Source of the DNA: Hyphomicrobiales bacterium
Lineage (GTDB): Bacteria; Pseudomonadota; Alphaproteobacteria; Rhizobiales; OSC116
Reading direction: 5' to 3'
NCBI GenBank assembly: GCA_013214705.1
Contig: JABSRZ010000003.1
Span: 248,001 to 312,000 of the forward strand
DNA: 64,000 bases
Under the pieces are notes generated by a model that ran no database searches, was not told the origin of the DNA, and worked only from the letters and a program-made list of their open reading frames with translations. The number at the start of each line of letters is the position of its first letter. Position 1 is the first letter of the stretch. Below, piece after piece: positions 46,504 to 60,814 of this stretch. The position numbers and the translations under genes were made by a program.

Positions 46504-46707
46504 ATGCAAATATCGCCATTAACCGCCGCATATGCGATGAGTGTGCAGGGTCAAACCCAGCAGATAATGTCGGCCAGCTTGATGAAAGCTGCGCTCGCGT
46601 CTGAACTGGCGGTGGCCGATATGGTGCAACAGGCCACTGACATGGTGAAAACTCGACAAGCGCCGCCGCCCGCGGGCATGGGCGCAAATGTTGATAAAAT
46701 GGCCTGA
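46504..46707 (+). CDS. Small YjfB-like protein
   Basis: The ATG at 46504 has GGAGTGAGT upstream and gives 67 residues. The sequence (Q-I-S-P-L-T-A-A-Y-A-M-S-V-Q-G-Q-T, A-L-A-S-E-L-A, then a Q-Q-A-T-D-M-V helix) resembles YjfB-family putative motility proteins, small helical proteins of unknown role. A Pro-rich loop and Gly-Met end follow. It is an isolated gene between two minus-strand operons. Similarity is by eye only; no function is claimed. Confidence 0.6.
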   Translation: MQISPLTAAYAMSVQGQTQQIMSASLMKAALASELAVADMVQQATDMVKTRQAPPPAGMGANVDKMA

Positions 46708-46779
46708 AAAAATAGCTTAAAAAAATGGCTAAAAAAATGGCTAAAAAAATGGCTAAAAAAATGGCTAAAAAAAATGGCT
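46707..46779 (-). repeat. 12-base tandem repeat next to the DAHP synthase terminator
   Basis: AAAAAAATGGCT is repeated perfectly four times (46719-46766), flanked by a decayed copy (46707-46718) and a 13-base copy merging into the terminator stem (46767-46779). On the minus strand the unit reads AGCCATTTTTTT, i.e. the end of the terminator's 3' arm plus its T-run. Confidence 0.92.
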
Positions 46780-56962: not shown

Positions 56963-57025
56963 TTTTTTTGATTTACAATTTTGATTTATTTGGCTAGTTT
57001 CCCGATATATTTTTAAGGAAATTTT

Positions 57026-57910
57026 ATGCCAAACAATCCGAGTTATAAGCTGGGTCTTATATACGCCACTTCAGCGTTTTTTTTATGGGGTGTGGCGGTG
57101 TTGTTTTTTAAACAAATCTCGCATGTGCCACCATTTGAAGTCATTGCCCATCGGAGCATTTGGTCGCTGGTATTGCTGGCGGTTATCATCACCTTCAGCA
57201 AAAAATGGCCGGTGATATTTGAAACCCTAAAAAGCCGAAAATTAATGCTGACTTTGGCGCTATCTTCGGTTTTGATTTTATTCAATTGGTCGGTATTCAT
57301 TTGGGCGATTTCAAATGGTTATATTATAGAAAGCTCACTCGGATATTTTATCAACCCGTTATTGAACGTATTAATCGGCGTTTTGGTGTTTAATGAAAAA
57401 CTAACCAAGGCGCAAACCGTCGCCATTGGTTTGGCGGCATTGGCGATTGTCATCCGCTTGGTATTGGCAGGCACATTTCCATGGATTGCGCTGTCAATTG
57501 CCACTAGTTTTGCCATATATGGTTACATACGCAAAACCGTAGCTGTGGGTGCGGCCGAGGGTCTATTTTTAGAATTGTTGATATTATTATTGCCAATGAT
57601 TGGATTTTTATATTATCTGCATATAAATTACGGTTTGAGCTTTTTTACCATTGATATGAGAACCGATATATTGCTGGTAGCGGCTGGCGCGGTGACGGCT
57701 GTGCCTTTGTTATTATTTTCGGCTGGTGCACGCATTATCCGCATGACCACACTTGGCCTGTTGCAATATATTGGGCCTAGTTTGCAATTTGCCATTGGCT
57801 TATATTATGGTGAGGCCTTTACGCCAATAGATGCCATTGTATTTGGCTTGATTTGGACCGGGTTGATTATTTATAGCACTAGTAGTTTTAGGCAAGCCAG
57901 ATTGGCATAA
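57026..57910 (+). CDS. rarD: RarD-type EamA transporter
   Basis: The 294-residue protein has ten hydrophobic helices in two EamA repeats and the RarD features G-x-x-x-A-x-S-A-F-F-L-W-G, P-P-F-E-V-I-A-H-R-S-I-W-S and G-Y-F-I-N-P-L-L-N-V-L-I-G. RarD proteins were linked to chloramphenicol sensitivity; the transported compound is unknown. AAGGAAATTTT precedes the ATG. Its 3' end is close to a tandem array. Confidence 0.88.
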   Translation: MPNNPSYKLGLIYATSAFFLWGVAVLFFKQISHVPPFEVIAHRSIWSLVLLAVIITFSKKWPVIFETLKSRKLMLTLALSSVLILFNWSVFIWAISNGYIIESSLGYFINPLLNVLIGVLVFNEKLTKAQTVAIGLAALAIVIRLVLAGTFPWIALSIATSFAIYGYIRKTVAVGAAEGLFLELLILLLPMIGFLYYLHINYGLSFFTIDMRTDILLVAAGAVTAVPLLLFSAGARIIRMTTLGLLQYIGPSLQFAIGLYYGEAFTPIDAIVFGLIWTGLIIYSTSSFRQARLA

Positions 57911-57927
57911 CATCATCGGCTTGCGTG

Positions 57928-58124
57928 AAAATACGTTAAGCCAGTAGTAGCGGGATGATTTTGTCTACTTTATCGGTTACCAAAAACTCAACTTCCATGG
58001 CATTTTTCGTTCGCCTGTGGCTCGCTGGTAACACTGCGTGCGCTTGCATCCGCAAGCTTGCCACGCCTAACGGCAACGCGCAGTCGCGCTGCTCACAAAT
58101 ATTTGTGAGCCAAGGCATTCAGTA
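57928..58124. repeat. Tandem 197-base unit, copy 1 (LOG tail plus 125-base element)
   Basis: Copy 1 has a 72-base segment (57928-57999) matching the last 20 codons and stop of the LOG gene at 58330, then a 125-base element (58000-58124). It differs from copy 2 at five bases in the 72-base part and one in the element. A 20-base palindrome lies at 58091-58110. Confidence 0.95.
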
Positions 58125-58321
58125 AAAATACGTTAAGCCAGTAGTAGCGGAATGATTTCGTCTACTTTATCGGTCACCAAAAACTCGACCTCCATGGCAT
58201 TTTTCGTTCGCCTGTGGCTCGCTGGTAACACTGCGTGCGCTTGCATCCGCAAGCTTGCCACGCCTAACGGCAACGCGCAGTCGCACTGCTCACAAATATT
58301 TGTGAGCCAAGGCATTCAGTA
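58125..58321. repeat. Tandem 197-base unit, copy 2
   Basis: Copy 2 repeats the pattern at exactly 197 bases from copy 1; its 72-base gene-tail part (58125-58196) is identical to the true LOG 3' end and its element spans 58197-58321. The palindrome recurs at 58288-58307. Confidence 0.95.
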
Positions 58322-58393
58322 AAAATACGTTAAGCCAGTAGTAGCGGAATGATTTCGTCTACTTTATCGGTCACCAAAAACTCGACCTCCATG
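58322..58393. repeat. Third occurrence of the 72-base tail (native LOG 3' end)
   Basis: These 72 bases are the native 3' end of the LOG gene, and similarity to the copies stops at 58393 within codon 165. The array therefore is tail-element-tail-element-tail. Confidence 0.95.
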
Positions 58394-58887
58394 CCTTGAC
58401 GAATAAAAGTTTCATCTTGCATCTGTTTTATAAGGCCAATTAACGGGTCCCAAAAGCCATTAATATTGGCTATGAGAACTTTTTTCTTATGTCTGCCCAA
58501 TTGCTTCCACGTCATCATTTCGACAAGTTCTTCGAGCGTGCCGATTCCGCCGGGCAGCGCGATGAAGGCATCTGACTTTTCGAAAAATAGCATTTTTCGC
58601 TCGTGCATATTATTGGTGATGATAAGCTCTGAACAATCTTTTAACATAACCTCGCGGGTTTGCAGAAATTTAGGAATAATGCCAGTAACATGCCCGCCAT
58701 GAGACAATGCCGAACTGGCCGCTGCGCCCATTAAGCCGGTGCTGCCGCCGCCATAAATCAAACCTATTTTATGTTGTGCAATTTGCGCGCCAATATCTAT
58801 GGCGGCTTGTTTATAAATGGGGGTGACGCCATCGCCAGAGCCGCAATAGATGCAAATGTTGCGTATTAAATTGTTATCTGTTGTCAT
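58330..58887 (-). CDS. LOG family nucleotide phosphoribohydrolase
   Basis: LOG-family proteins split nucleoside 5'-monophosphates of cytokinin type, or other purine nucleotides, to base plus ribose 5-phosphate. The Rossmann-like 185-residue protein has the diagnostic P-G-G-I-G-T-L-E-E at 112-120, an M-H-E-R-K motif near 94-98, and the early phosphate loop G-G-G-S-T-G-L-M. Bacterial members are widespread housekeeping proteins. The last 20 codons are duplicated twice downstream. Confidence 0.93.
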   Translation of the reverse strand: MTTDNNLIRNICIYCGSGDGVTPIYKQAAIDIGAQIAQHKIGLIYGGGSTGLMGAAASSALSHGGHVTGIIPKFLQTREVMLKDCSELIITNNMHERKMLFFEKSDAFIALPGGIGTLEELVEMMTWKQLGRHKKKVLIANINGFWDPLIGLIKQMQDETFIRQGMEVEFLVTDKVDEIIPLLLA

Positions 58888-59101
58888 GTGGTTTGATAAT
58901 TATCCTGAATTTTGGGCTAATTTATGCCCATTTAAGGCCAATATTGAGCGAATATCATACATAAACACCAGATAAATTAATAATGTAGCATAAAAATGGG
59001 TGATTTTGGCCGCCAGTTGGGCTAACTTGATTTAAATTATAGCCATGATGGTATGAATTGATTAATTATTGTCCATCTTTTGAAATTAAATTGAGTATCG
59101 C

Positions 59102-60814
59102 ATGAAAAAGTATATTTGGGGCGCTGTTGCAGCGGCTGTTGTAATTGTTGTGGTTTTGTTGAAATCTGATGCGGCATGTAGTTATTTCCCTAACCAAATA
59201 GGCTGGATAAACGAGTGTAAAACTGTGAATTCTCTTACCCCTGTTGCCAGTGATGAGACCAATAAACCGCTTGAAGTCACTCCCATCACCATCGAACCGG
59301 TTACTGAACAACCCGTTACAACGACAGACCAACCAATTATTGTCGATGAAGAACCGGTTTTAGGTGATGAAAATACAGCTGCGGACACAGTGGAAACGCC
59401 TGCAGTGGTGGCTAATGAAGCACCAGCCAATGACGCACCAGCCAATGACACGCCAACCAATGTCGAGCCAACAGATGAAAATTCAACCAGTGAAGACGTA
59501 ATTAAGCCAACATTTGACCTTGCGCGAGTTGAAGCCGATGGATCGGCGGTTGTGGCCGGCCGGGCGATACCCAATGCGACCATAATATTGAAAAATTCGG
59601 GCGAGATAATTGCCGAAACCACTACCAATGACAGAGGCGAATGGGTGGCCATTGTGGATGTGCCGGTGGAGGACAATGTGATTGTGCTAACTCTGGATAG
59701 CATTGCAAAAGACGGCGTGGTGACAACGTCTGACGAAGAAATAAAAATTGCCATGCGCAAAATTACGCCTGTGGAGACCAGCATTACCGAAACCCCCGTT
59801 ATTACGGCTGCAGAAGAGACTGTTGTTGTGGAAACGCCGGTTGTAGAAACTGAAATTGTAGAAACGCCAGTTGCGGAAACTGATGTGGCGCGGACTGAGA
59901 CAGTTGAAACGCCGGTTGTTGAGGATACGCAAACTGACCAAGCTAAAACTGAAATTAAAATTGCGGCTGTAAACACCAAAACAACATCAACAATTGTGAC
60001 CGAAGAAACACCTAATGCTGAAACAACGGTTGCTGAAACAGCTATTGCTGAAGCTATTGTTGCCGAAGCCAAAACGGATGAGCCAAAAACCGAAATAGTT
60101 GTGGCGGCGGTTGAAGCCAAAACAGAAGACGTTGTGACCGAAGAAAAAGCAGTTGAACCTACGCCGGAAGTGGACAATACCCCCTTGGTGGTGCTTACCA
60201 AAAAAGGTGAAGCGACCAAAGTATTGCAAGGCGCGGGTGTTGGCTCTGAAGGCAATGAAATGACCTTTAACAGCCTAGATTATAATGAAAAAGGCGAAGT
60301 TATATTCTCTGGTGATGCCAAGCCGAATGAATTTGTGCGAGTTTACATTAATAACCAATTTGTTGGCCAAACAAAATCTAACAGCAATGGTAGATGGTCG
60401 CTAGATGTCGGCTATGTGATGAAATCTGGTAAAAATGACATGCGTTTTGACCAAGTTGATGCCGCCGGCGTGGTTATATCTCGCCGGGTGACATCTATTA
60501 CCATGCCAAAATTGGAGCAGAAAACACCGCAAAACTCAGCCGTGGCCGACAACACGCCAAAAGACGCCACTCAAACTGACGAAACTCAAATAGCGATGGT
60601 AGAAAAACCCAGAAACACCCGGGCAATCATTGTGTGGGGTGACAGTTTGTGGAATATATCGCAAAAAGTATATGGTGACGGCGAGTTATATATCGCTATT
60701 TTTGAAGCCAATAAACGCCAAATTAGACACCCAGACCTTATATTCCCCGGGCAAGTGTTTATGCTACCTGATGACGCAGAAATTGAAGTTATTATGGCGC
60801 CTTTAAGAGACTAA
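59102..60814 (+). CDS. LysM and Ig-like domain envelope protein
   Basis: The 570-residue protein has a membrane anchor (residues 3-21), a Thr/Pro/Glu-rich linker, a bacterial Ig-like domain (about 138-218), a long acidic T-V-E-T-P-V-type low-complexity segment (about 221-365), a second Ig-like domain (about 385-468, V-x-V-Y-I-N-N-Q-F-V-G-Q-T) and a C-terminal LysM (about 509-556, W-G-D-S-L-W-N-I-S-Q-K-V-Y-G-D-G). It probably sits in the periplasm and binds peptidoglycan. Such LysM proteins are common in alphaproteobacteria; precise role unknown. Upstream of psd-pssA but separated by 82 bases. Confidence 0.85.
   Translation: MKKYIWGAVAAAVVIVVVLLKSDAACSYFPNQIGWINECKTVNSLTPVASDETNKPLEVTPITIEPVTEQPVTTTDQPIIVDEEPVLGDENTAADTVETPAVVANEAPANDAPANDTPTNVEPTDENSTSEDVIKPTFDLARVEADGSAVVAGRAIPNATIILKNSGEIIAETTTNDRGEWVAIVDVPVEDNVIVLTLDSIAKDGVVTTSDEEIKIAMRKITPVETSITETPVITAAEETVVVETPVVETEIVETPVAETDVARTETVETPVVEDTQTDQAKTEIKIAAVNTKTTSTIVTEETPNAETTVAETAIAEAIVAEAKTDEPKTEIVVAAVEAKTEDVVTEEKAVEPTPEVDNTPLVVLTKKGEATKVLQGAGVGSEGNEMTFNSLDYNEKGEVIFSGDAKPNEFVRVYINNQFVGQTKSNSNGRWSLDVGYVMKSGKNDMRFDQVDAAGVVISRRVTSITMPKLEQKTPQNSAVADNTPKDATQTDETQIAMVEKPRNTRAIIVWGDSLWNISQKVYGDGELYIAIFEANKRQIRHPDLIFPGQVFMLPDDAEIEVIMAPLRD

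Follow-up and report, generated by a model that had tools for sequence, protein, structure and literature searches.

Tandem copies of a sequence arise by unequal exchange between direct repeats. Palindromic repeats of the REP/BIME kind, and the GTAG- and CGTC-tagged repeats treated with them, are short, hairpin-rich and restricted to particular lineages, and fall into many subtypes with differing stems (PMC3733652). In the sections of that work drawn on here, the reiteration of palindromic repeats in tandem, together with flanking DNA, has already been published, and the CGTC families are given as having no association with transposase genes. Arrays of displaced genes have been described for Vibrio T6SS immunity genes and for orphan Rhs 3′ regions, for which, in the portions of the account used here, homology-facilitated illegitimate recombination was proposed (PMC5361080). 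Here we describe an array in which copies of a dispersed palindromic repeat alternate with copies of the 3′ end of a LOG-like gene, and compare it with these systems.

Architecture of the array

The array occupies 57928-58393 of the window (the whole 64,000-nt stretch of DNA that was analysed), on contig C23 of a 3.5-Mb genome (G000). A sequence-only reading had described it as two full 197-base units and a partial third with an exact period, and Tandem Repeats Finder agrees, returning a period of 197, 2.4 copies, 97% matches and no indels. The two copies of a 197-nt direct repeat (57925-58121 and 58122-58318) are 96% alike, and a 75-nt repeat occurs three times at spacings of 197 and 197, consistent with the three copies of the last 20 codons and stop of a LOG gene claimed in that reading. 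Each unit comprises a 72-base copy of the 3′ end of the LOG-like gene (the tail, t) and an element (E) that fills the remaining 125 bases, the length originally assigned to it. The tail begins with the final base of codon 165, continues through codons 166-185 and the stop codon, and ends 8 bases past it. On the minus strand, the order is LOG-like gene body-t3-E2-t2-E1-t1 (Table 1). Both outer joints are native, the gene body running into t3 and t1 running into the flank. In both E1 and E2 the element's right end lies exactly at codon 165/166, and, judged by eye, the E-t joint shares only the bases of the tail itself, with no extra microhomology.

The gene was said to be left intact, and it is: the whole 185-aa open reading frame (ORF) encodes a protein that scores 173.8 bits against TIGR00730 (cut-off 96.35) and 135.2 bits against PF03641 (cut-off 27). 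It lies below the cut-off of the narrower cytokinin-activating LOG model NF058542 (134.6 versus 300), and 'LOG-like' is therefore the safer name. The stop codon of its convergent neighbour, rarD, is separated from the t1 stop codon by 25 bases.

Long-period arrays are rare here. Of the 19 Tandem Repeats Finder rows, the LOG-tail array is the only one with a period above 30, and a 400-kb comparison sample taken farther along this contig and divided into 20 stretches of 20 kb contains one other array with a period of at least 60. This 213-base (71-codon) tandem repeat lies inside a long open frame (L148 11594-12120, on C23 beyond the window) and presumably resembles the repeats of a phage tail-fibre-like protein. 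Shorter repeats also occur in the window: 15- and 30-base tandem repeats at 59414-60067, in a large ORF (59102-60814) adjoining the LOG-like gene, encode Thr/Glu/Ala-rich stretches, and the 12-base unit AAAATGGCTAAA is repeated 6.8 times at 46696-46779.

Table 1. Features of the LOG-tail array and its surroundings, in window positions
Feature	Positions	Strand	Basis or remark
rarD (EamA family), convergent neighbour	57026-57910	+	Family match and ORF
t1, distal tail, adjoining the native 3′ flank	57928-57999	-	5/72 differences from t3
60-codon ORF, E1 through t1	57936-58118	-	ORF list; probably not a gene
E1, 125-base element copy	58000-58124	-	1/125 difference from E2
t2, duplicate tail	58125-58196	-	0/72 differences from t3
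60-codon ORF, E2 through t2	58133-58315	-	ORF list; probably not a gene
E2, 125-base copy of the dispersed mosaic palindromic repeat	58197-58321	-	
20-base perfect palindrome, first hairpin of the element	58091-58110 (E1); 58288-58307 (E2)		Strand not applicable
t3, working 3′ tail of the LOG-like gene	58322-58393	-	Final base of codon 165 to 8 bases past the stop
LOG-like gene, intact, 185 aa	58330-58887	-	TIGR00730/PF03641 and ORF

A dispersed family of mosaic repeats

The description of the 125-base segment as an element was borne out when the genome was searched with it: E belongs to a dispersed family with 30 matches at an E value ≤0.01, the array included. At the same threshold, the five other genomes of the genus contain 42, 43, 33, 2 and 1 matches, the counts of G001 and G005 being lower bounds, with only 40 candidates scored in each. 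The core of the element matches 40 places in this genome, as against 0 for a reversed control, and the six genus genomes contain 40, 49, 43, 19, 2 and 2 core matches. Across 397 genomes of the order, the core was found in 6/6 genus genomes and, with one match each, in 6 of the 391 others, of which a larger number contained matches to the reversed control; the core pattern differed slightly between the two counts (CGTNGC in this genome, CGTRGC in the 397-genome survey). Viral contigs yielded 0 matches to a 31-base stretch of E. By this distribution, the family looks confined to the genus.

The subtype of E is unevenly distributed. Its GCGTGGC core is found in 4 of the 40 core matches in this genome, two of them being the array, and the GCGTGGC/GTGG subtype accounts for 23 of the 30 first-listed matches of G001, G002 and G005, subtype counts in the survey being taken from the first-listed places of each genome. 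The E subtype is not shared by the whole genus: the four core matches listed for G003 and G004 all belong to the GTAG subtype. The best match to E outside the array is in G001 (83% over 88 bases), where another match reaches 95% over 55 bases; the best in its own genome outside the array is 85% over 62 bases.

The copies are mosaics of small hairpins in which the stem sequence varies and the pairing is kept, with swapped stems such as GCTTGC/GCAAGC, GCACGC/GCGTGC, GCTTTC/GAAAGC and GCGAAC/GTTCGC. We aligned 63 copies with MAFFT, drawn from part of the loci fetched. Each had an exact core match and a length of 105 bases or more; identical copies were entered a single time, and copies with a changed core were left out. 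The second hairpin is formed by ten different stems of 6-7 pairs in 32 of the 63, and the best stem has 3-4 pairs in the other 31. Mean stem lengths of 5.3 and 4.7 exceed those of simple shuffles (4.3 and 3.3) modestly. Consensus folding of this alignment with RNAalifold recovered only the short CGTTAGG hairpin, which has 4 pairs and a covariation term close to nil; on visual inspection, the alignment leaves the variable hairpins out of register.

A rough ORF screen of 38 copies placed 24 outside any ORF of at least 70 codons and 14 inside one, and 13 of the 14 overlapping ORFs are shorter than 145 codons. By neighbourhood, 18 of the 38 lie between tandem ORFs and 6 between convergent ORFs. 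Some copies or relatives of the element stand in head-to-tail pairs of 94-102 bases, 83-91% alike, without duplicated gene DNA (L103, L109, L110 (G000 C45) and L094 (G000 C41)). A further recurrent module like ATGCARACTTCCAGAGC, also present as its reverse complement and often beside the element (L049, L047 and L007), may mark where a longer MITE-like repeat ends.

The family appears to share with REP/BIME and tagged palindromes its short, hairpin-rich, subtyped repeats and its restriction to one lineage, and differs from REP/BIME, as far as these are set out in the sections cited, in its length of ~90-125 bases, its several hairpins and the constancy of neither tag (PMC3733652). It shows some, not all, of the marks of REPs. 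GTAG stands at the hairpin foot in 36 of the 40 core matches in this genome; with GTGG in both array copies and predominant among the first-listed matches of G001, G002 and G005, GTAG is not constant, as it would be in the GTAG-tagged REPs. Nor is the CGTC of the CGTC-tagged (RPE-like) repeats constant here, CGTC preceding the core in one subtype only and the array copies having CGTT. The Y1 (RAYT) transposase family PF01797, detected in 5 of 14 control genomes, has no match in this genome and is present in one of the six genus genomes (G004). This absence is a weak argument against tagged palindromes, because CGTC families are listed without transposase genes in the part of the source consulted (PMC3733652). 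Rfam gave no match at an E value ≤1 in 57000-59400, and nine further loci of the element were likewise without a match at gathering score. An integron attC site, suggested by the GTTAGGC core, was discarded by eye. By our literature searches the repeat family appears undescribed; among the papers listed by that on OCS116 and repeats, none concerns such repeats by its title.

Orthologues and the order of events

The nearest named relatives of the LOG-like gene, in the assemblies NORP194 (labelled Alphaproteobacteria), NORP83 (OCS116 cluster) and BB6 (Hyphomicrobiales), encode proteins 80-82% identical to it. Four of the five other genus genomes contain an orthologue at 78-82% identity, and G001 contains a 40% relative only. 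The unit number and the empty site to which the sequence-only reading had pointed could both be read from these orthologues: all four have one tail, which in G002, G003 and G004 lies directly against rarD without E, the two stops overlapping by 23 bases in G002 and lying 15 apart in G003 and 7 apart in G004. In G005, a related element is located 260 bases beyond the stop, in other neighbouring sequence, and the 11.9-kb contig carrying the orthologue contains no rarD match. Most likely, then, one tail is the ancestral state, from which the array is derived.

The tails differ in divergence. The array is more than a plain copying of one unit, for 6 positions distinguish the two (E+t) units, five of them in t and one in E. 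The five differences between t1 and t3 are all transitions, 4 synonymous and 1 changing Glu to Lys. The contrast between t1/t3 (5/72) and the pooled E1/E2 and t2/t3 comparisons (1/197) is significant (Fisher p = 0.006). That t1 is far more diverged than t2 and t3 implies either that two or more events took place at different times or that one tail came from another allele. Either way, the array needs at least two steps, an older one that would have made t-E-t1 and a recent one that would have doubled t+E.

The codons of the orthologues conflict on the direction of change. The Lys codon of t1 is Glu in 4/4 orthologues, GAA of t1 at the first Glu codon is matched by 3/4 whereas t3 has GAG, and the ATC of t1 is uninformative, since neither ATC nor ATT occurs at that codon in any of the four. 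Thus, t1 may have come from another allele, or it may be a copy in decay. The four synonymous differences among five are as expected between working alleles; the bias is not significant (P = 0.085 for at least four synonymous among five random transitions), and these five tail differences do not establish selection on t1. With its Lys codon, t1 would fit an old copy decaying where it lies just as well, which weighs against the origin preferred below.

Origin of the array

We give about an even chance to the array being a recombination scar around one copy of a genus-specific hairpin-rich repeat, produced by one-ended joining or a template switch and then by duplication of the unit. In the first step, a near-complete E would have been joined between the full LOG 3′ end and a second 72-base tail, yielding body-t-E-t1-flank, most probably by illegitimate joining at one end, in one of two forms. 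In the first form, an incoming LOG gene with E already after its stop would have recombined by homology in the gene body, and the end of E would have been joined to the resident gene at codon 165/166, so that the old tail, t1, was displaced downstream. In the other, replication would have switched template into another copy of the element and then returned. In the second, recent step, the 197-base (t+E) unit would have been doubled, the 72-base direct repeats serving as the sites of unequal exchange or of slippage. The unequal exchange proposed in the sequence-only reading is thus retained as a fair source of the second unit, with slippage as the other; it does not cover t1, the divergence of which needs two events or another allele's tail. 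The E subtype is rare in this genome and frequent among the matches listed first for G001, G002 and G005, with the best outside match in G001, which favours incoming DNA carrying an E of foreign flavour. The donor allele, LOG directly followed by E, was not found in the five genus relatives. Counting against the proposed origin are the restriction of the E subtype to part of the genus, the lack of microhomology at the E-t joint and the ordinary similarity of the LOG-like gene to its relatives, which, judged against its neighbours, is not unusual for any of them.

An insertion of E at codon 165/166, followed by unequal exchange that built the array, was the sequence of events originally suggested. 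The exact abutment of E on that codon junction in both copies and the empty site in the orthologues fit it, but insertion alone would split the gene into body-E-tail and leave no tail upstream of E. The native sequence at both outer joints means that E is flanked by a complete tail on either side, so the tail was copied in the same or an earlier event; simple insertion is insufficient, whereas a one-ended joint or template switch suffices. Restoring body-t would require a further joint, of the t end to the left end of E, and the divergence of t1 from t2 and t3 would be left unexplained. As a first step this insertion is not supported, and we consider the route as a whole quite unlikely. Transposition of E into the gap after LOG by widely staggered cuts, with a 72-base target duplication and later doubling of the unit by unequal exchange, would give body-t-E-t-flank in one step. 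Inspected by eye, E also seems to be an almost complete copy: its right end (AAAAATG) agrees with those of other copies, its left end less clearly. A target duplication of 72 bases, however, far exceeds the usual length for bacterial insertion elements. Moreover, self-comparison of 59 element loci found gene DNA duplicated beside the element at the two array loci and at none of the 57 others (some overlapping), with three left-over repeats unassigned at L040 (82 bases, 75.6%), L046 (22 bases) and L086 (19/85 bases). Such a transposition seems unlikely.

The extra tails might instead be functional, the E-t ORFs being translated as short peptides of the LOG C terminus or the hairpins protecting the 3′ ends of the LOG and rarD mRNAs. 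Both ORFs start 14 bases past the preceding stop, the t1 differences are mostly synonymous and G005 also has an element beyond LOG. The two downstream mini-genes of the sequence-only reading do exist as ORFs of 60 aa each, but they match no Pfam or NCBIfam family at cut-off, the element frame is open in 10 of the 63 family copies (the two array copies included) and, by eye, no Shine-Dalgarno-like sequence precedes their ATG; they are probably not genes. The synonymous bias falls short of significance, a terminator and promoter scan found no excess over shuffles and the predicted fold of E1 has a z of only -1.38. A function for the extra tails is accordingly very improbable on these observations. 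An assembly artefact, the outcome that would have undone the earlier description, is suggested by the identity of t2 and t3 and the single difference between E1 and E2; it is countered by the 6 positions that separate the two (E+t) units and by the location of the array inside a 954-kb contig, and we think it most improbable. Under the preferred reading, a recombination scar, the LOG-like gene would keep its normal C terminus, and the extra copies would most likely just lengthen the 3′ untranslated region between the convergent genes, a harmless scar that leaves the gene intact.

Discussion

The array resembles tandems made by unequal exchange in its exact 197-base period and near-identical units, and differs from the usual ones in that the repeat permitting the exchange is a gene tail. 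The proposed tail displacement parallels the Vibrio T6SS and Rhs case, as far as the consulted parts of that account describe it, in its upstream homologous anchor, its downstream illegitimate joint and the resident 3′ sequence orphaned downstream; the LOG-tail array differs in the 72 bases displaced, in having no effector or immunity function and in that no donor was found (PMC5361080). We would venture, as a doubtful generalization, that mosaic repeats of this family swap hairpin stems, spread without a resident Y1 transposase and act at gene 3′ ends as joints that repeatedly capture and displace tails, in which case the array would be an ordered record of tail replacements, the oldest farthest from the gene.

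The LOG-tail array is one more case of palindromic-repeat reiteration; it differs from those in the cited sections in having a gene's 3′ end as the flanking segment, and what is new is the repeat family and the gene-tail content, reiteration of palindromes with flanking DNA being already known (PMC3733652). It indicates how a dispersed palindromic repeat can come to lie between two copies of a gene's end with the gene unharmed, and it draws attention to a family of repeats that looks restricted to a single genus of marine alphaproteobacteria. Apart from these two points, the locus represents ordinary genome wear.
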